Below are positions 1 through 9,085 of a stretch of DNA of 9,085 nucleotides, piece after piece; position 1 is the stretch's first letter; each line of letters begins with the position of its first letter. The stretch spans positions 1-9,085 of the forward strand of contig JALVZS010000109.1 in the NCBI GenBank assembly GCA_027022065.1. The letters are read 5' to 3'. This DNA comes from a bacterium (GTDB taxonomy: Bacteria; Thermosulfidibacterota; Thermosulfidibacteria; Thermosulfidibacterales; Thermosulfidibacteraceae). The translations under genes were made by a program, and so were the position numbers. The notes below the pieces were generated by a model. That model was not told the DNA's origin and searched no databases. It saw nothing but the letters and a program-made list of their open reading frames with translations.

Positions 1-132
1 GTCATAGGCAAAAAATATAGTGTCTATAGCCTCGGCGTGGGATGACATAAGAAAGAACAAGTCAGGATCTGGCGTTAGAGAAAAAGGGTTACGTTTTAGG
101 TTCAGCGCCTCAAAGTATCTGGTTATTATCAT
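1..132 (-). CDS. mshM: MshM/ExeA (GspA)-type AAA ATPase, N-terminal fragment
   Basis: Partial gene running off the left edge; 44 codons are visible. The start ATG (132-130) overlaps the secretin stop TGA (131-129) in an ATGA junction, with a weak GGGA five bases upstream. The translation begins MIITRYFEALNLKRNPFSL and continues TPDPDLFFLMSSHAEAID. The NPFSLTPDP stretch, followed by a hydrophobic segment and H-x-E-A, is the characteristic N-terminus of the ExeA/GspA/MshM family, just ahead of its AAA ATPase domain. The Walker motifs would lie beyond the window. Family members (GspA/ExeA) help insert or assemble the secretin through the cell wall, and MshM is the counterpart in MSHA pilus loci. 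Position directly after an mshL-like secretin matches the mshL-mshM order. The assignment rests on a short fragment but on a very recognisable motif; GspA of a type II secretion system is the alternative name. Confidence 0.82.
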   Translation of the reverse strand, partial: MIITRYFEALNLKRNPFSLTPDPDLFFLMSSHAEAIDTIFFAYD

Positions 133-1748
133 CTGGTTCCCACTATGTCGGCGTTTACATAGCTTCCTATACTGGCTTTTGGGGCATAGGGGTTGTATAT
201 AACATGGGGTGTAATAAAAACAAAAAGTTCTGTTCTCCCAGAAGTTTTCTCATGCCTTGTAAATAAATTGCCTACCAATGGTATATCAGAAAACAAGGGA
301 GTTTTGTATTTTGTGGTAGAATTTCTCCTTTCTATAAGTCCTCCTATTATAAGGGTTTCACCATCCATGAGCTTGACTACCGTGTCCATTTCTCTAACGT
401 AAAACTCCGGTTCTTCCACGGGCACATCCCCACATTCACTTCTAAAGGTCCTCACATCCTTCAATTCAGTAACATTAGGATGCACATATATGGTTATTAC
501 GCCTTTTTCATCCACATATGGAACAAGAGATAGAGAAACCCCCACGAAAAAGGTCTCTGTGTCAACGTCACACCCTATAGTATTAGTTTCTGTATTGGTA
601 GTGCTGGAAACGTCAGTCACAAACCTCATATCCTCACCGACCTTTATTACAGCCCCCTGATTGTTTACCACAGCCAATCTGGGAGAAGATATGACATTAA
701 CAGTTCCGTACTGTTCAAGAGCCCTCACAACCATATTAAACGGATCCCTCGCAGTGATGGATGAAGAAACGGTCATGGTAAAATAAGGAGTAACAGGCGA
801 AATTTCACTAGTAGGCTGAGAAAGCTGGTGAAAGGTAACAGAATATTTGCTTCTAAACACATTGTTAAATACCTTCTGCCAATCAATCCCTATTTGCAAG
901 CCTTTCTTTAATTCCACTTCTGCGATCTTGACATCTAAAACAACCTGTTTATCCAATGATGCTTTAACCGACTTTATATATTCTTCCACCCTCTTTAACT
1001 CTATTTTCTCAGCAGTAACTATAACATGACCAGTGCTCCTATTTATAGCCACAAATTTCTTACCAGAAGAGCAAAGCTCTACAACGCTACCCAATCCACC
1101 TGTAGATTTACTACAAGTAAGACCTATCAAACTACAAATGTTACAACCTACATCGTTCCACACAGAAAGCTTATTAGCCGCAAACACCTGAACAGAAAAG
1201 CTTCCAGAAGATGCTCCTTCTTCCGTACCTGTTGTTCCAGAGGAAATGCTACTTGACACCTGCATCCCTCTGGAAATGTTCAGCAACCCCAGCTTAAATA
1301 TTTCCGTTCCTATATCCCCCCTCATTATCCATACAGTGTTCCCGTCAACCACATAAACAAACCCCAGGGACTTGGAAAGCACATCAAGTGCTTGAAAAAG
1401 TGTAACCTTTCTCAGCTCAACTGTAACAGGCTCATCAACAGGCACATCTTTGCCAAATACCAGGTTATAGCCCCTCTCCCTTAGCAGCGTTCTCAACACC
1501 TCTCCTAAAGGAGCTTTTCTTAGCACAAGATCAAATTTTCTGTGTTCTTTCTTTGCGAGTGTAGAAAAATCAGCCCTCAAAAGAGGCCTTTCCAAAGGTT
1601 TTAAAGAAATTTTGTTTTGATTAACTTTAGGAAAAGTTACTTCTTTGTTTTTCACCTGGGACTTCTGGTTTGCACAGCCGAAAAGCAGGAGCATACTAAA
1701 TATGAACACGGTATATCTTGCCCTGGATCTCAATGACGGCCTGATCAT
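129..1748 (-). CDS. mshL: Secretin lipoprotein, MshL/PilQ type (outer-membrane pilus channel)
   Basis: Forms the outer-membrane ring through which the pilus passes. ATG 1748 is preferred (539 aa) because GGGAG lies six bases upstream; a TTG at 1754 would sit directly on that site. Residues 1-25 form a lipoprotein signal peptide: basic n-region, hydrophobic core, lipobox LLFGC with Cys25 as the lipidated residue. A short secretin/TonB N-terminal (STN/N0-like) domain spans about 70-143, ending VYVVDGNTVWIM. An N1-like segment follows (about 232-290, VAINRSTGHVIV then LDVKIAEVELKKGLQIGIDW, typical of MshL). The secretin core runs to about 517 and contains VISSPRLAVVNNQ (352-364), IIGGLIERR (467-475) and the C-terminal signature FSDIPLVGNLF with TELFVFITPHVI. 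Oddities are a Ser/Gly-rich linker (about 164-183), then a four-cysteine stretch (Cys202, 205, 212, 226), plus Cys393 and Cys439. The first 53 bases overlap mshK. MshL is favoured over PilQ or GspD by gene order and the short N-terminal half. Confidence 0.9.
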   Translation of the reverse strand: MIRPSLRSRARYTVFIFSMLLLFGCANQKSQVKNKEVTFPKVNQNKISLKPLERPLLRADFSTLAKKEHRKFDLVLRKAPLGEVLRTLLRERGYNLVFGKDVPVDEPVTVELRKVTLFQALDVLSKSLGFVYVVDGNTVWIMRGDIGTEIFKLGLLNISRGMQVSSSISSGTTGTEEGASSGSFSVQVFAANKLSVWNDVGCNICSLIGLTCSKSTGGLGSVVELCSSGKKFVAINRSTGHVIVTAEKIELKRVEEYIKSVKASLDKQVVLDVKIAEVELKKGLQIGIDWQKVFNNVFRSKYSVTFHQLSQPTSEISPVTPYFTMTVSSSITARDPFNMVVRALEQYGTVNVISSPRLAVVNNQGAVIKVGEDMRFVTDVSSTTNTETNTIGCDVDTETFFVGVSLSLVPYVDEKGVITIYVHPNVTELKDVRTFRSECGDVPVEEPEFYVREMDTVVKLMDGETLIIGGLIERRNSTTKYKTPLFSDIPLVGNLFTRHEKTSGRTELFVFITPHVIYNPYAPKASIGSYVNADIVGTR

Positions 1749-2097
1749 CTTCAACTCCCAAAAACTTTATGCCGTTTAGCTCTTTTCCCTTTTCTATGAA
1801 GAAGCTGCCGACAGACAGGTATTCCTTCTCACCTTTTATAACACTGAAGTGTAGCTTTTCAATAAGAGAGGCTACATCAGTCTTGTTCTCAGTCATGTTT
1901 TCTCCTAGGACGGTTTCCTCAAAGCTGAAGTGAAGAGGCTTCACACGCTTTATAGGCTCCCAGTTTTCATACACATAGCTTGAAAGGGCAAGGGCTTTAG
2001 AAGAAATCACACATTTGGGCTTGTGTATAACAGTAAGCATAAAAAAGAACAAAAAAGCAGCAAAAGGATAGAGAAGCACCTTGTAAAAGGGCTTCAC
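1696..2097 (-). CDS. mshK: MshK-like (PilP/GspC-type) pilus assembly protein
   Basis: A 133-residue bitopic inner-membrane protein. Residues 1-5 are cytoplasmic, 6-24 form one very hydrophobic membrane segment (PFAAFLFFFMLTVI), and the rest should be periplasmic. The C-terminal third (about 94-133: YLSVGSFFIEKGKELNGI, then VIEIQGKIYRV) has the pattern of small beta strands and glycines seen in GspC/GspB/PilP homology regions, which link the inner-membrane platform to the secretin. It starts with GTG at 2097, overlapping the mshJ stop as GTGA, with a good GGAGG seven bases upstream. Its 3' end overlaps the secretin gene by 53 bases, so translation of the two should be coupled. Sequence identity to named MshK proteins cannot be seen by eye. 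The call depends on topology, size, the C-terminal pattern and the position between mshJ- and mshL-like genes. Cys29 lies just outside the membrane segment. Confidence 0.65.
   Translation of the reverse strand: MKPFYKVLLYPFAAFLFFFMLTVIHKPKCVISSKALALSSYVYENWEPIKRVKPLHFSFEETVLGENMTENKTDVASLIEKLHFSVIKGEKEYLSVGSFFIEKGKELNGIKFLGVEDDQAVIEIQGKIYRVHI
1755..1759 (-). promoter_or_regulatory. Ribosome binding site of the secretin gene
   Basis: GGGAG on the minus strand, six bases before ATG 1748. It sits inside the mshK coding region and decides for ATG 1748 over the TTG at 1754, which would leave no spacing at all. Confidence 0.65.
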
Positions 2098-2600
2098 TTA
2101 GAAACCTCCAGTTCTGTGCTGAACGCCAAGACAGCCCTGTCTGACGAAACTGTTAAGCCCTTCAAAGAGGGAATAACATTTGTGGAAAAAGAAAGTGCAT
2201 AGTTTAGTATATCAGCAATACTGGACCAACTCGGCTTGGAAAGTTCAACATTTACAGAGTAAGAAGGAACGATACCAGGATACACCAAAGGCGGAGACAC
2301 ACTGACCCTGGACACATACTTTTGTTGCTTAATAAAATCCCGCAGGCGCAGCATAAGTTCATAGGCGTCCTTTTTGCTTAAAGAAGCATTGTAAGAAAAC
2401 CCAGCCAGTATGCTGCTGAGTCTTTCATATTCGGCCTTTATTTTGGGTAACTTGGAAATCGCCTGCTCATAAACGGCAAGGTTCCTTTCAAGACATCCAA
2501 CCTGCTTGGAAAGGCACCAACACCCATAGGAAGACAGCCCCAAAAGTGCTGCCACAGCAAAAGGAAACAAGGTTTTATAATTCAGCTTCAACTTTGACAT
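2094..2600 (-). CDS. mshJ: MshJ-like (PilO/GspM-type) pilus alignment protein
   Basis: A 168-residue bitopic inner-membrane protein with the PilO layout: short basic cytoplasmic tail (1-8), a membrane helix (about 9-29, LFPFAVAALLGLSSYG), a coiled-coil stretch (about 32-66, LERNLAVYEQAISKLPKIKAEY) and a ferredoxin-like periplasmic domain (about 78-168). PilO pairs with PilN to form the periplasmic part of the alignment complex between the pilus motor and the secretin. ATG 2600 overlaps the mshI stop by 13 bases, and no Shine-Dalgarno sequence is visible before it, so translation probably depends on ribosomes finishing mshI. Three cysteines (27, 29, 36) sit at the outer face of the membrane helix, which is unusual for this family. 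GspM of a type II secretion system is the main alternative, but the neighbouring genes favour MSHA type. Confidence 0.75.
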   Translation of the reverse strand: MSKLKLNYKTLFPFAVAALLGLSSYGCWCLSKQVGCLERNLAVYEQAISKLPKIKAEYERLSSILAGFSYNASLSKKDAYELMLRLRDFIKQQKYVSRVSVSPPLVYPGIVPSYSVNVELSKPSWSSIADILNYALSFSTNVIPSLKGLTVSSDRAVLAFSTELEVSK

Positions 2601-3706
2601 TTTATAACAAAGGAAAAGCTCCCTTTGCTGTCAAAGCTTCTGTTTACTACAGATATACCCTGATTTTTTAGAGATTCTAACATATAAAGAAAATTTAGGA
2701 AAGCCTCAGAGCTGTTTTTAGTATTTGAGATTCTCCCCGACACGCTTATCATGCCGTTGCTAAAGGATAAGGTATTGAGCTTAACAAAGGAAATACCCTT
2801 TAAGTAGTTATAAAGGCTGTAAGCAGTGGTCACACAGTAAAAGGATTTAAGTTTGGAGTTTCTCTCCTTGTAAAGGGCCTGCAGTTTCTTGACGCGCTCT
2901 CTCATCTTCACAAGCTCTGAGTAGATGCGGTATTCCTCATCCAGCGTTTTGCTGTAGACTTTAATTTTTCTTTTCAAACTATAGATCCTGTAAAGCTGAA
3001 AAGCAGAAGCAGAAAGGCTCAACAATAGACAGGCAAGCACAGCGTAGTTGACAAACCTTACAAGCCTCTGGGCCCTCTTTTCGGCAAGTATGTCCCTTGG
3101 AAGCAAATTGTAGTCTTGAACAAGCTCAAGTGGTGGTTCCTCAAAGTCCACTCCTTCAAAGGTTACAGCTAAATCCTTATCCTTAAAGAGATCCAGCTTC
3201 TCTCTGGTAACAAAGCACCTATCGGGGAAAGAACCCACCACATTGTAGGCGTATCTCAAAGCGCTGTTTATCATCTCCAGATCCGCTTCTGAAAGCTCTT
3301 CAGAATAAAGGGGAATAACAGTTGAATAAACCAGGCACCTTTTGTGAACGAGAAAGAGCCTTATGCTTCCCTCTTCGGGTATCATGCACCAGTAAGGCTC
3401 ATCCTCGGGAACTTTACCAAAAAGGGAAGCGGCAAATGCAACCTCTTTGGTTACTACACACTCCGCGTCGGGATGTTCTGACAAAAGCTTTTCAAGCTCA
3501 TCCTTTTTAACAACGCTTATGGAAACCACATAGTCCGTTTCTTTTTCCTCGTAAATCCTGTAGCCAAAGGCAAAGGGCTGAGGAATGTCAGATCTATCCT
3601 GAAGCTCAAGGGATATTAAGCGGGGAAGGAATTTCTTTTTTATTTTTCTAATTTCTACCAGTCCATGAAAGGCAGAGGGAAAATCTCCTACTACAAGCTT
3701 GGGCAT
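2588..3706 (-). CDS. mshI: MshI-like fused PilM/PilN-type protein (GspL-like)
   Basis: A 372-residue protein combining two roles that PilM and PilN share in ordinary type IV pilus systems. Residues 1-195 form a cytoplasmic domain in the position of the actin-like PilM/GspL domain. It is short, and no ATP-binding signature is evident. An NLLP motif (about 200-203, in DYNLLPRDI) precedes a basic stretch and one membrane helix (about 216-240, LVRFVNYAVLACLLLSL). A coiled coil follows (about 242-285), then a periplasmic ferredoxin-like PilN domain (about 290-370). NLLP just before the membrane helix is the hallmark of PilN, where it binds PilM. ATG 3706 is chosen because AGGTG lies seven bases upstream; the in-frame TTG at 3712 would leave one base of spacing. 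The gene starts ten bases after the sigma-factor stop and overlaps mshJ by 13 bases. GspL is the alternative family label. Confidence 0.75.
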   Translation of the reverse strand: MPKLVVGDFPSAFHGLVEIRKIKKKFLPRLISLELQDRSDIPQPFAFGYRIYEEKETDYVVSISVVKKDELEKLLSEHPDAECVVTKEVAFAASLFGKVPEDEPYWCMIPEEGSIRLFLVHKRCLVYSTVIPLYSEELSEADLEMINSALRYAYNVVGSFPDRCFVTREKLDLFKDKDLAVTFEGVDFEEPPLELVQDYNLLPRDILAEKRAQRLVRFVNYAVLACLLLSLSASAFQLYRIYSLKRKIKVYSKTLDEEYRIYSELVKMRERVKKLQALYKERNSKLKSFYCVTTAYSLYNYLKGISFVKLNTLSFSNGMISVSGRISNTKNSSEAFLNFLYMLESLKNQGISVVNRSFDSKGSFSFVIKCQS

Positions 3707-3713
3707 AAGCAAG

Positions 3714-3718
3714 CACCT
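3714..3718 (-). promoter_or_regulatory. Ribosome binding site of mshI, overlapping the sigma-factor stop codon
   Basis: AGGTG on the minus strand, seven bases before ATG 3706. Its AG is part of the TAG stop of the upstream sigma-factor gene, so termination of one gene and initiation of the next occur at the same spot. It fixes the mshI start at 3706 rather than at TTG 3712. Confidence 0.6.
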
Positions 3719-4655
3719 AGTTCAGGTAGTCTTCCAGCTTTTTGGCCGTAGCAAGCTTCTTCAGCTTCTGTAAAGCCCTTGCCTCTATCTGGCGCACGCG
3801 CTCCCTGCTTACTCCCAGTATCTTTCCTATCTCCTCAAGGGTCATGGGGTGATCCACGCCCATTCCAAAGCGGCAACGAATGATGAATGCTTCTCTGGGC
3901 TTTAACTGGGAAAGCATCTCCTCTATGTGCTCTGCAAGGGCGCTTTTTATAGCCTCCTCCTCGGCAGATGGAGTGGTGGCTTCCATGAGGTCAAGAAATG
4001 TGGTGTCTTCCTCATCTTTATTTATGGGAGCCTCAAGGGAAAGGTGGATCCTCGCAACCCTTAAAATGTCTTCCACATCTTCGGGCTCCATGTCCAGTTC
4101 CGCCGCTATTTCCTCAGTGGTTGGCTCTCTGCCCAGGCGCTGCAAAAGTTCCTCATAGGTGTTTCTTATCTTTAAAAGTACAGAGGCCTGCTTCAGCGGA
4201 AGCTTAACCACACCGGATTGCTCCGCCAGAGCCTGCATAATGGCCTGCTTTATCCACCACACGGCGTAGGATATGAAGCGCACGCCTCTATCGGGATCAA
4301 AGCGCTTAGCAGCCTGGATCAGACCAAGGTTGCCCTCGTTTATGAGGTCCATGAGGGGAACGCCGTAGCCCTTGTACTTTGAGGCAACGGAAACCACAAA
4401 GCGCAGATTGGACTCCACAAGCTTTCTAAAGGCCTCTTTGTCTCCAGCCCTGGCTCTCCTCGCCAGCTCTATTTCTTCCTCTCTGGAAAGCACGGGATAG
4501 GAGCTTATGCGCTTTAAGTATGCAGAAAGTCCTTCCTCGGTGGCGGGGACCTCAAAGCTGTCTAAGAGGTCCTCCACCTCGGCATCGTCCAGATCCACAG
4601 CCTCTCTATCTTCAAACACGTCTTTTTCCATAAGGATTTCTTTTTCCTTTTCCAT
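3717..4655 (-). CDS. RNA polymerase sigma-70 factor, group 2 (RpoD/RpoS-like)
   Basis: A 312-residue sigma factor with regions 1.2 (about 42-73), 2 (74-146), 3 (147-235) and 4 (239-312), but no full region 1.1, so it is about half the length of a housekeeping RpoD. Region 2.3/2.4 reads GVRFISYAVWWIKQAIMQAL. The WW pair for promoter melting and the Gln matching E. coli sigma-70 Gln437 are present, while the position matching Thr440 is Met140. Region 4.2 carries a clear helix-turn-helix (TLEEIGKILGVSRERVRQIE, about 272-291) for the -35 element. The first 40 residues are strongly acidic and could act like a reduced region 1.1. ATG 4655 overlaps the clpB stop by one base (TGATG) and has AAGGTG five bases upstream; a GTG at 4658 would be only two bases away. 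It directs transcription of an unknown gene set. Position suggests a link to stress or pilus genes. A compact primary sigma factor cannot be excluded. Confidence 0.9.
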   Translation of the reverse strand: MEKEKEILMEKDVFEDREAVDLDDAEVEDLLDSFEVPATEEGLSAYLKRISSYPVLSREEEIELARRARAGDKEAFRKLVESNLRFVVSVASKYKGYGVPLMDLINEGNLGLIQAAKRFDPDRGVRFISYAVWWIKQAIMQALAEQSGVVKLPLKQASVLLKIRNTYEELLQRLGREPTTEEIAAELDMEPEDVEDILRVARIHLSLEAPINKDEEDTTFLDLMEATTPSAEEEAIKSALAEHIEEMLSQLKPREAFIIRCRFGMGVDHPMTLEEIGKILGVSRERVRQIEARALQKLKKLATAKKLEDYLN

Positions 4656-7279
4656 CACGCCACCTTCTTCAGGGTTTGCTCAGCATTTTTGAAGATTATA
4701 CCATCTCCATCAGAGGAAAGCACTATCCTGTCGCCGGGTTTCACATCGCCTCTTAAAATCATCTCTGCAAGAGGATTCTCCACAAGCCTCTGTATGGTCC
4801 TTCTAAGCGGTCTTGCACCATACATGCTGTCAAAGCCCACCTCAGCAAGATACTCTTTGGCGCTTTCCTCCCAGGTAAGCTCAATCTTCTTCTCGGTGAG
4901 CCTTTTAGCAACCCTGCCCAGCATGAGATCGGCAATCCTCTTGACATGCTCCTTGCCAAGGGAGTGGAAGACAATGATTTCGTCAATCCTGTTGAGGAAC
5001 TCGGGCTTGAAGTAGGCTCTTAAGGCGTTTAGCACCTTTTCCTTCATCTCGTTGTAGTATCTCTCGTATTCCGGCGTTCCAAAGTCGGCAGGAGGCGGCG
5101 TGATGAACTCGCTTCCTATGTTGGAGGTCATGATTATCACGGTGTTTTTGAAGCTGACTGTGTTGCCCTTGGAGTCAGTGAGCCTTCCGTCTTCAAGGAT
5201 CTGCAAAAGTATATTGAACACCTCAGGATGCGCCTTCTCTATCTCGTCTAAGAGAACCACGGAATAGGGACGGCGTCTAACAGCCTCGGTAAGCTGTCCG
5301 CCCTCCTCATACCCCACGTATCCCGGAGGAGCACCTATGAGGCGAGAGACGGAGTGCCTCTCCATGTATTCAGACATATCTATTCTCACCATGGCGTTTT
5401 CATCATCAAAGAGAAACTCCGCAAGAGCCTTTGCAAGCTCCGTCTTTCCAACACCTGTGGGACCTAAGAATAGGAAGGAGCCAAGGGGCCTGTTGGGATC
5501 GGAAAGTCCTGCTCTTGCACGCCTTATTGTCTCGGAAACGGCTCTTACCGCCACATCCTGTCCTATAACGCGTTTGTGCAGTTCCTCTTCCATTCTCAAA
5601 AGCTTTTGAGCCTCCTCCTCAAGCAGCTTGTGAACGGGAATGCCCGTCCATTTGGAGATGATTTCGGCGATATCCTCGTCCTCCACCACCTCCTTGAGAA
5701 GCTTCCTCTTGCTCTGTATCTCGGATAGCCTTTTGTTGGCTTCCTCAAGCTCCCTATTTAAGCGCATGAGCACATCGTATTTGATTCTCGCTGCCTTTTC
5801 CAAATCACCCTGCCTTTCCGCAAGCTCAAGCTCGTGCTGTGCCTGATTGATCTGCTCCTTTAGCTGGCGCACCCTCTGTATAGCCTCTTTTTCAGCAAGC
5901 CAGTGGGCTTTTAGCTCGTCAAACTCCTCTTTAAGCTGGGCAATCTTCTTCTCTATAACCTCCAGCTCCTCGTTGGATTTGCCCTCAAGCTTCAAAACCT
6001 CCCTTTCTATCTCAAGCTGTCTCATCTTTCTCGCTATATCGTCAAGCTCGGAGGGCATGCTGTCTATCTCCATTCTGAGCTTCGCCGCAGCCTCATCTAT
6101 GAGGTCCACCGCCTTGTCGGGAAGGCGCCTGTCAGGGATGTATCTCGCAGAAAGATACGCCGCCGCTATTATGGCAGAATCAGAGATCCTTACGCCGTGA
6201 TGTATCTCGTAGCGCTCCTTTAACCCTCTCAAGATGGATACGGTCTCCTCCACAGAGGGCTCGGAAACGTAAACGGGCTGGAACCTCCTTTCAAGGGCGG
6301 GGTCCTTTTCAATATACTTTCTGTATTCGTCCACGGTGGTGGCGCCTATGCAGTGAAGCTCTCCCCTTGCAAGGGCAGGCTTTAAGATGTTTGCAGCATC
6401 CATTGCACCTTCAGCCCTTCCAGCTCCAACGAGGGTGTGGATCTCGTCTATAAAGAGGATAATCTTGCCCTCCTTCTCCTGTATCTCCTTGATAACCGCT
6501 TTCAGTCTCTCCTCAAACTCGCCCCTGAACTTGGCGCCTGCAAGAAGGGCCCCCATGTCAAGGGCAAGGATGCTCTTGTCCTTCAAGGTGGTGGGAACAT
6601 CCCCCTTGGCGATTCTTTGGGCAAGCCCCTCAACGATGGCCGTTTTTCCAACTCCCGCATCGCCTATTAAACAGGGATTGTTCTTCCTGCGTCTTGAAAG
6701 GATCTGAATGACCCTCCTTATCTCCTCGTCCCTGCCTATGACAGGATCAAGCTTGCCCTGTCTTGCAAGCTCTGTAAGGTCAACGCAGTATTTTTTGAGC
6801 GCCTGATACCTCTCCTCTGCCGTCTGATCGGTAACCCTGTGGGGACCCCTCACCTCGGAAAGGGCTTTAAGAAGCTCCTCAAAGCCTGCCCCCATAGACT
6901 TAAGGATATCGTGGGCGTAGGAGCCGGGCTCTTTGGCAATGGCAAGCAATAGATGTTCTGTGCTTATGTAGGAGTCCTTCAGCTCTTTTGCTAAATTGTT
7001 TGCCTCCTCAAACACTTTGTTGAGCTTGGAAGAAAGGTATATGTCTCCAACTCCAGAAACCTTGGGAAACTTGGAGAATGTATCCTCAAGCCTCCCCTTC
7101 AGGAGTCTTACATCCACGCCGCACTTTTGCAGTATCTCACTAACGGGTCCCTCCTGATCTATAAGGGCGTAAAGCAAGTGCTCCGGCTCAAGCTGCTGAT
7201 GCTCCCTGCTTGAGGCTATCTCCCTTGCCTTGGCAATGGCTTCCTGAGCCTTTATGGTGAATCTATCTAAGGAAATCAT
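4655..7279 (-). CDS. clpB: ATP-dependent disaggregase ClpB
   Basis: Hexameric cytoplasmic AAA+ machine that pulls polypeptides out of aggregates, working with DnaK and its J-protein. At 874 residues it is full length and all expected parts are present. Two Clp N-terminal repeats span 1-145. NBD1 has Walker A GDAGVGKT (206-213), the pore loop in [12 protein letters not shown] (247-258), Walker B ILFIDEI (274-280) and arginine fingers R331/R332. The coiled-coil middle domain (about 405-530) distinguishes ClpB from ClpA. NBD2 has Walker A GPTGVGKT (606-613), the pore loop GYVGYEEGG (653-661), Walker [10 protein letters not shown] (674-682) and the sensor-2 motif GARPLRR (821-827). No key residue is missing. 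ATG 7279 follows the hspR stop with no gap, behind an exceptionally strong ribosome binding site. HspR commonly represses clpB in other bacteria, so control by the neighbouring repressor is likely. Confidence 0.98.
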
Positions 7280-7687
7280 TTAAGCATCACCTCCTTCATC
7301 AACGATCTCAATCTTAACGAGTTTGCTAACAGGCACCTTCACAAGACCCGGCTGTTGCATGCGCCTCACCTCTATCTCCATGTAGCGCTTTAACAGTTCG
7401 GTGAGCTTTTCAATCTCCGCTTGCAGCTCTTCTATCTGCTCCTTCATGCGCAGGATTATCTCCACGCCTGCAAGGTTCACGCCGAGATCCCTGGTAAGGC
7501 TCACTATGGTTCTCAGGCGCTCCACATCCTCGTCGGAATAGAGCCTCGTATTTCCCTCACTTCTTGCGGGCTTTATAAGCCCCTCCCTCTCGTATAGCCT
7601 CAAGGTCTGAGGGTGGACTCCAAGCATCCTCGCAACGGCACTTATCTGGTAAAGGGGCTTCTTTTTGTCTTGGTTTCCCTTCTTCAT
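7280..7687 (-). CDS. hspR: HspR, MerR-family heat-shock repressor
   Basis: A 135-residue DNA-binding repressor. Residues 11-46 form a MerR winged helix-turn-helix containing ISAVARMLGVHPQTLRLYER, followed by EGLIKPARSEGNTRLYSDED (35-54). The HPQTLRLYEREGL and GNTRLYS stretches and the downstream LGVNLAGVEIILR are highly characteristic of HspR. A coiled-coil dimerisation helix (about 78-108) and a hydrophobic tail (KVPVSKLVKIEIVD) complete it. There is no metal- or drug-binding domain. In actinobacteria and Helicobacter, HspR represses chaperone operons through HAIR inverted repeats, and in Streptomyces it uses DnaK as co-repressor; the same feedback is inferred here from the dnaK-dnaJ-hspR-clpB order. 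ATG 7687 lies three bases after the dnaJ stop, with GGAGG six bases upstream inside dnaJ. No HAIR site was found in the window; it should be upstream of dnaK. Confidence 0.95.
   Translation of the reverse strand: MKKGNQDKKKPLYQISAVARMLGVHPQTLRLYEREGLIKPARSEGNTRLYSDEDVERLRTIVSLTRDLGVNLAGVEIILRMKEQIEELQAEIEKLTELLKRYMEIEVRRMQQPGLVKVPVSKLVKIEIVDEGGDA
7286..7296 (-). promoter_or_regulatory. Maximal Shine-Dalgarno sequence for clpB
   Basis: The minus strand reads AAGGAGGTGAT, an 11-base perfect match to the complement of the usual 16S rRNA 3' end, six bases before ATG 7279. It lies inside the last codons of hspR, encoding its E-G-G-D tail. It confirms the clpB start and predicts heavy translation of clpB relative to the repressor. 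Confidence 0.8.
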
Positions 7688-7690
7688 GGC

Positions 7691-8656
7691 TTACCTCCCG
7701 AACCTCTGCAGTATCTCCCTTCTGGGATCCATGGGATTGCGCTGGGCAATTTCTCTTAGCATCTGGATGCTTGCACCATCCAAGTTCTTGGGAACCACCA
7801 CCTGCACCTCCACGAATAGATCCCCGTATCCGCCTCCTCTGAGCCTTGGCATACCCTTGCCCCTGAGCCTCAACTTCTGACCGCAACTGGTTCCAGGAGG
7901 CACCCTTACCTTAACCCTGCCGTCTAAGGTGGGCACCTCTATTTCGGCTCCCAAAGCCGCCTCCCAGAAGGTTATGGGCACCTTGCAGTAGAGGTTGTCC
8001 CCTTTTCTTTCAAAAAAGGGATGGGGACGTACCTTTGTGATTATGTAAAGGTCTCCCGGTGGACCGCCTGCAATGCCGGGCTCTCCCTTGCCTGCAACCC
8101 TCACTCTTGTGCCGTTGTCCACACCGGGAGGGATTCTCACCCTGATGGTTTCCGGCACACCGCCTCTGTTGACGGTTATATCCGCAAAAAGCCCTTTATA
8201 GGCATCCTCAAGGGAAAGCTCAAAGGTGTATTCTATATCACGTCCCTTCTGGGGACCTGCGTAGGTTCTCTTTCCAAAGCCAAAATCACTTCCGAAGAAC
8301 TTTTCAAATATGTCCCCTATGTCGCCAAAGCTGAAGTCAAAGTTGCCAAAGTGCACCCTGAAGCCGCCCGTGGAAAAATCCTGAAAACCGGAAAAACCCG
8401 ATGCACCGGCACCCGCACCAGCTCCCTGGCTAAAAGCAGCATGTCCAAACTGATCGTAAAGCTTCCTCTTTTCCGGATCGGAAAGCACTTCATATGCCTC
8501 GGTTATCTCTTTAAACTTCTCCTCCGCTTCCTTGTTTCCAGGATTGAGATCGGGATGGTACTTTCTCGCAAGACGCCTGTAGGCTCTCTTTATCTCCTCC
8601 TGTGTGGCATTTCTGGGCACACCAAGAATCTCGTAGTAGTCTCTTTTGGCTGTCAT
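7691..8656 (-). CDS. cbpA: Class-B J-domain co-chaperone, CbpA/DnaJ2 type
   Basis: A 321-residue Hsp40 that delivers substrates to DnaK and stimulates its ATPase. The J domain (about 5-70) has the essential HPD at 34-36 ([10 protein letters not shown]). A Gly/Phe-rich linker (about 77-130) ends in a [11 protein letters not shown] helix. Two beta-sandwich substrate domains and a C-terminal helix follow (about 138-321, with [21 protein letters not shown] and [20 protein letters not shown]). The CxxCxGxG zinc-finger repeats of canonical DnaJ are absent; only two cysteines are present, so this is a class-B (CbpA-like) protein and a class-A DnaJ may exist elsewhere. It lies between dnaK and hspR, as in HspR-controlled operons. 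ATG 8656 is supported by AGGGGGAG ending four bases upstream, but that site is folded into a perfect hairpin (8661-8683), so translation may be controlled. Confidence 0.95.
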
Positions 8657-8704
8657 AGCTCTCCCCCTTTAGAAAAGGGGGAGGGAGGGTCTATCCCCCT
8701 CCCC
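8657..8704 (-). promoter_or_regulatory. dnaK-dnaJ spacer with a hairpin covering the dnaJ ribosome binding site
   Basis: The only real intergenic gap in the window (48 bases). In the transcript, arms CTCCCCCTTT (8683-8674) and AAAGGGGGAG (8670-8661) form a perfect 10-bp stem with loop TCT. The 3' arm contains the dnaJ Shine-Dalgarno sequence, and the start codon follows four bases after it. Just after the dnaK stop, GGGGAGGGGG (8704-8695) can pair instead with CCCTCCCC (8685-8678), which overlaps the 5' arm, so the two pairings are mutually exclusive. There is no U-tract, so it is not a typical terminator. The structure is read directly from sequence; a role in controlling dnaJ translation or mRNA processing is inference. 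Confidence 0.6.
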
Positions 8705-9085
8705 TTACTTTTTCTCCTCAAAGTCGGCGTCTATGACTTCCCCCTCGCCGGAGCTTCCCGATGTGGAGGATGCACCAGAAGCACCGCTGGCACTGCCAGT
8801 ACTACCGGTTGCGCCACCTGCGGCGCTTGCAGCCTGCTGATAGAGGTACTGGGCGATCCTATGGGAGGCCTGGGTAACCCTCTCTATGGCCCTCTTTATC
8901 TCGTCTATACCGCGCTTCTCCTCAAGCACCTTCTTGGCGTCAGCCAGAGCCTCCTCAATCTCCTTGATATCGGACACAGGAATCTTTTCTCTGTTCTCGT
9001 TGAGGGTTTTCTCCACGCTGTAAACAAGACCGTCAAGCTGGTTGCGAAGTTCTATCTCCTCTTTTCTTCTTCTGTCCTCCTCGGC
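8705..9085 (-). CDS. dnaK: Chaperone DnaK (Hsp70), C-terminal fragment
   Basis: The last 126 residues of DnaK; the reading frame stays open to the right edge, so the 5' part is outside the window. The fragment opens in the substrate-binding domain with AEEDRRRKEEIELRNQLDGL, then LVYSVEKTL, the classic start of the helical lid (compare AEEDRKRKE and Y-S-x-E-K-T-L in other DnaK proteins). The lid helices continue to about residue 85 of the fragment. A low-complexity Gly/Ala/Ser/Thr linker (ASAAGGATGSTGSASG onward) and the conserved tail EGEVIDADFEEKK follow; this tail matches the EEVVDADFEE type that aids chaperone function. Nothing can be said about the ATPase domain. DnaK is the core Hsp70 that works with the downstream J-protein and ClpB, and it is the likely co-repressor of HspR. 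Confidence 0.97.
   Translation of the reverse strand, partial: AEEDRRRKEEIELRNQLDGLVYSVEKTLNENREKIPVSDIKEIEEALADAKKVLEEKRGIDEIKRAIERVTQASHRIAQYLYQQAASAAGGATGSTGSASGASGASSTSGSSGEGEVIDADFEEKK

Follow-up and report, generated by a model that had tools for sequence, protein, structure and literature searches.

The spacer between dnaK and dnaJ in the 9,085-base stretch of DNA analysed here (the window) was predicted to fold into two hairpins, one directly behind the dnaK stop codon (H1) and one over the Shine-Dalgarno sequence (SD) of dnaJ (H2). Based on the folding models, this spacer was interpreted, with a confidence slightly above even, as a two-hairpin element which may reduce dnaJ expression compared with that of dnaK on a common transcript. 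DnaK and DnaJ are needed in unequal amounts, though their genes share that transcript.

The 3' end of dnaK was located at 8705..9085 on the minus strand (Pfam HSP70, profile 518-599 of 599), with 126 codons up to the stop TAA at 8707-8705 and the remainder beyond the contig edge. On the same strand, dnaJ (7691..8656, 321 aa, Pfam J domain and DnaJ_C) began at ATG 8656, the spacer from the dnaK stop to this codon was 48 nt, and the junction read TAA-GGGGAGGGGGATAGACCCTCCCTCCCCCTTTTCTAAAGGGGGAGAGCT-ATG. For the dnaJ product (window 7691-8656), no Pfam match to a zinc-finger domain was obtained, and the DnaJ of the dnaK operon was classified as a CbpA-like J protein, with only the J domain and DnaJ_C matched. 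Further DnaJ-family genes were present at other loci in several relatives, and one match was found in the incomplete window genome.

The MFE structure of the full spacer comprised two adjacent hairpins, H1 and H2, with -29.3 kcal/mol, and the fold of the surrounding 151 nt gave z = -2.95. H1 in this full-fold form (8683..8703, minus strand, from the MFE of spacer and transcript) paired GGGAGGG with CCCTCCC (8703-8697 / 8689-8683) around a 7-nt loop, right behind the dnaK stop. H2 (8661..8683, minus strand) was the stem which the initial annotation had described, a run of 10 perfect base pairs between 8683-8674 and 8670-8661 that closes the loop 8673-8671, and the dnaJ SD, GGGGGAG (8661..8667, minus strand), was located in its 3' arm, four bases before ATG 8656, as had also been stated. 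The suggestion that this stem hides the SD agreed with the predicted fold, in which all seven SD bases were within H2. No other perfect stem of at least 8 bp with a loop of 3-8 nt occurred within the window. Stems of at least 10 bp were formed in 2.8% of the dinucleotide shuffles of the spacer (560/20,000), because the spacer is built of G and C runs.

An additional pairing between the G-rich segment behind the dnaK stop and bases 8685-8678 had been proposed, and it was real (8704-8697), as part of a longer alternative hairpin exclusive with H2, designated H1c (8678..8704, minus strand), with 10 pairs (8704-8695 / 8687-8678), one of them G-U, and -20.9 kcal/mol. During folding of the nascent RNA, H1c was the best fold of the spacer from 28 nt on, until the SD arm is transcribed, and among 64 codirectional gene pairs no other had a stronger fold within 40 nt past the stop. 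The notion of two exclusive folds was thus retained in part: energetically such folds are predicted to exist, with one C tract usable by either of two stems, but in the MFE structure H1 and the SD stem coexist, because the G-rich segment there pairs with 8689-8683.

H1c was followed by CTTTTCT and came first among the terminator-like sites in the window scan. The tail behind it, CTTTTCTA (8670..8677, minus strand, from the terminator scan), contained a short U tract, and the arrangement of an intrinsic terminator, a GC-rich hairpin directly before a U tract, was present as GGGGAGGGGGATAGACCCTCCCTCCCC-CTTTTCTA, with 5 T of 8. H1c was regarded as an imperfect terminator, since its U tract is short, with C as the first base. 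In about 0.7 Mb of the window genome (G000), the ends of 627 ORFs were scanned and 39 strong post-stop hairpins were detected, H1c included; a G-rich 5' arm was found in 27 of them, and 12, again with H1c, had at least 5 T among the 8 bases that follow. H1c resembled further hairpins of G000 which combine a G arm and a C arm with a T tail, for example GGGGGATGGTTGCTCCATCCCCC-CTTTTCTT. A terminator reading on the plus strand was dropped, with no plus-strand gene ending at the site. The U tract was not kept in the relatives, the tails in G002, G004, G005, G006 and G008 being without it. Termination is therefore not the conserved function, as only the window genome has the T tail behind H1.

Nine genomes of the phylum were sampled, and the dnaK-dnaJ junction was present in eight. 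G002, from another genus of the same family, was the only same-family relative with the site; the assembly of the third family member, G001, contained neither dnaJ nor the end of dnaK. A DnaJ search of the genome contigs returned relatives of at most about 50% identity only, which were too distant for spacer alignment. A hairpin behind the dnaK stop was found in all eight genomes having the junction, six of these hairpins being alignable and two unrelated in sequence. The arms were of the GGGGGAGGG/CCCTCCCCC types in G005, G006 and G008, GGGGCGGG/CCGCCCC in G004 and GTGGGAGG/CCTCCCAC in G002. G003 had a long hairpin beginning further downstream, and G007 had AU-rich hairpins with no sequence in common with the other genomes and no complement to the SD. 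For pair counts the hairpin arms were aligned with loops as N; plain MAFFT misaligned the hairpins through their loops. In the six alignable genomes, 100% of pair cells were standard and 3/8 H1 pairs were changed on both sides (compensatory), a level equalled in 16/500 shuffles and reached by no slid control. This covariation is modest evidence, since the sequences are few. An H2-type stem was detected in two genomes, both in the window's family (G000 and G002), and was absent from the other six with the junction (G003-G008). The spacer comparison proposed in the initial annotation therefore had a divided outcome, in which a hairpin behind dnaK was kept 8/8, with compensatory changes among the six alignable genomes, and the SD stem was absent outside the family.

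The occlusion of the dnaJ SD was compared with that of 352 genes from about 0.7 Mb sampled in G000, which were simple ORFs with an SD-like motif, uncurated, and of 68 genes in G002. With strict Watson-Crick pairing, dnaJ alone among the 352 genes had an SD stem exceeding 6 bp. When G-U pairs were allowed, the SD hairpin of dnaJ was the most stable of the 352 (-15.7 vs next -13.3), and dnaJ was again first among the 68 genes of G002 (-10.0 vs next -6.4), with a stem of different sequence, UCCUCCC-UAU-GGGGGGA. The mean accessibility of the dnaJ SD region lay in the lowest 1.4-3.7% of G000 genes at all temperatures tested (37-90 C). Opening a fixed 10-nt SD window of G000 dnaJ cost 2.4 kcal/mol at 80 C, an ordinary value equalled or exceeded by 28% of genes, since the C tract, once released, is captured by H1c. 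Second for SD-region hairpin stability among the sampled genes was a subtilisin-like ORF at reverse-strand 10201 of G000:C39 (L192, minus strand), upstream of which tandem near-identical hairpins, GGTGGTTAAATTTAACCACC and GCTGGTTAAATCTAACCGG, precede the start codon.

The proposed two-hairpin element would act in two steps. The emerging G-rich segment would pair with the C-rich tract to form the terminator-like H1c, followed by CTTTTCT, which may end some transcripts and/or protect the 3' end of dnaK mRNA. In read-through RNA, the SD arm would then take part of the C tract, giving H2 beside a shortened H1, and H2 would block the SD, leading to poor dnaJ translation. The persistence of the hairpin behind dnaK in 8/8 genomes despite sequence change is consistent with this element, and the strong hairpin in the E. 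coli dnaK-dnaJ spacer supports it by analogy. The two-sided pair changes, the lead of H1c among nascent folds, its likeness to T-tailed hairpins elsewhere in G000, the top rank of H2 in both genomes and the low SD accessibility also speak for it. Against it stand the T tail confined to the window genome, the occurrence of H2 in two genomes and the ordinary fixed-window cost.

Related control has been described in enterobacteria. For E. coli, a terminator described as imperfect has been reported in the dnaK-dnaJ spacer, where it allows the two genes to be expressed differentially (Bardwell 1986, as cited in PMC5406781). In Salmonella, dnaK and dnaJ mRNA were uncoupled under Mg starvation, no intrinsic terminator was seen in the spacer, and processing, termination or tpke11 was proposed (PMC12077118); the lack of a terminator-like sequence there sits uneasily with the earlier finding in E. 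coli and counts against the two-hairpin element. The E. coli spacer matched Rfam RF02031 (tpke11) with 69.6 bits, and the covariance model of this family found no match in the window or its relatives. Low-score Rfam matches (wcaG, miRNAs), far below gathering scores, were taken as chance. Like the window, E. coli has a strong dnaK-dnaJ hairpin within one operon, which has been put forward as a cause of unequal dnaK and dnaJ levels; unlike it, the window has no Rfam match, and SD opening at 37 C cost 9.0 kcal/mol in the window compared with 2.4 in E. coli. Control of this type thus has precedents, and the window element represents a lineage-specific instance. An H1 kept by compensatory change, together with an SD block limited to a probably hyperthermophilic family, would offer a simple way to study how the DnaK:DnaJ ratio is set in thermophiles and if regulation by SD hairpins is feasible at all near 80-90 C.

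A different explanation, which we consider unlikely, is that H1 alone matters, as a 3'-end stabilising or RNase-processing hairpin of dnaK mRNA, and that H2 is a by-product of the G/C runs. The retention of the hairpin in all eight genomes, even without a T tail and, in G007, without complement to the SD, would fit this explanation, as would the family-limited distribution of H2 and the frequency of such stems among shuffled spacers. However, H2 was the top SD hairpin in two genera with different sequences (1/352 and 1/68), which argues against a by-product. An mRNA-processing or stability hairpin had been put forward at the outset; it fits the hairpin conserved in 8/8, as does an imperfect terminator.

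It is likewise improbable that H2 is an RNA thermometer, which at growth temperature would mask the SD of dnaJ and on heat shock would open to give more DnaJ. The presence of reverse gyrase is a sign of very hot growth. Full-length reverse gyrase above the cut-off was found in 3/3 genomes of the family (G000:C147, G001:C106, G002:C4) and in none of the six remaining genomes sampled from the phylum. This distribution suggests hotter growth of the family bearing H2 than of the other sampled members. G000 probably grows very hot, because only its family in the sampled phylum has the full-length enzyme, and the earlier guess of a thermophilic host was borne out to this extent, as a probable (hyper)thermophile. 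Intercistronic RNA thermometers are known (PMC4166951), and the window shares with ROSE, fourU, hsp17 and Salmonella groES thermometers a stem-held SD upstream of a heat-shock gene. In favour of a thermometer, the SD was predicted to be fully paired at low temperature, H2 is confined to the reverse-gyrase family, and predicted SD accessibility in G000 more than doubled from 0.21 (70 C) to 0.48 (90 C), a fold rise above 97.7% of the 352 genes, with energies at 70-90 C extrapolated far from the temperature of measurement. The corresponding rise in G002 was ordinary (62nd percentile of a 68-gene background, extrapolated energies), so that the proposed folding over 37-90 C gave opening in the top 2-3% of genes in one member of the family but not in the other, and this inconsistency is unlike known heat-shock thermometers. 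Unlike ROSE, fourU, hsp17 and groES elements, moreover, the stem of the window is perfect and very GC-rich, and H2 has no weak pairs. The energy of isolated H2 was -17.2 kcal/mol at 37 C and, by extrapolation, -5.7 at 80 C and -3.1 at 90 C, from which melting near 100 C would be expected. The window stem pairs GGGGGAG with CUCCCCC and not four U with the AGGA of the SD as in fourU; no Rfam thermometer family was matched, and for ROSE no Rfam match was obtained at gathering or at E<=10. PMC9396072 places a Salmonella thermometer before dnaJ, citing Cimdins 2013, but where PMC4166951 and PMC5406781 cite that work it is for groES, not dnaJ. Evidence for a true temperature switch was weak, and the dedicated thermometer of the initial annotation was not upheld, given the isolated stem of -5.7 kcal/mol at 80 C, the ordinary rise in G002 and the absence of the stem outside the family.

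A switch coupled to dnaK translation appears quite doubtful. A ribosome on the dnaK stop would cover the G-rich segment, so that the C tract pairs with the SD; with no ribosome, H1c would form and leave the SD free, which would tie dnaJ initiation negatively to dnaK termination. As in attenuators and translational riboswitches, a single C tract can enter one stem or the other; unlike them, the window element has no ligand domain, and the exclusivity is not kept in all relatives. The ribosome was modelled as a static block, with the final 20 nt of dnaK and the 12 nt past the stop barred from pairing, a model which ignores kinetics. At 37 C, the block raised the opening cost of the dnaJ SD by 8-10 kcal/mol (from 6.9 to 16.7), the largest shift of the 64 codirectional pairs, and at 80 C from 2.6 to 7.6. 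Shifts of 4-8 kcal/mol recurred in G002, G004, G005 and G006, but none was found in G003 and G007, and that in G008 was about 0.8. The earlier idea that ribosomes terminating on dnaK choose the fold therefore agreed with the large modelled shift in G000 and not with 3/8 genomes. The effect may be incidental, because a C-rich hairpin arm complements any G-rich SD; the SD GGGGTGGG of G005, G006 and G008 is unmatched to the arm at the T, and the hairpins of G007, without complement to the SD, argue that the hairpin and not a switch is maintained. A joint scheme, in which heat (about 80-95 C) and dnaK-terminating ribosomes together set dnaJ translation via the C-rich tract common to both stems, is very unlikely; if true, it would be a thermometer far above the temperatures of those in the literature compared.

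Downstream of dnaJ on the minus strand, a MerR-family regulator (7280..7687, Pfam MerR_1) and clpB (4655..7279, Pfam Clp_N, AAA, AAA_2 and ClpB_D2-small) were located. The regulator is probably HspR-like, by position and sequence. HAIR-like motifs (the HspR operator), searched with at most 3 mismatches, showed no enrichment over control in most genomes. Beyond clpB, 129-4658 of the window contained, on the same strand, an rpoD-like sigma factor gene and a run of ORFs which resemble pilus assembly/secretin genes.
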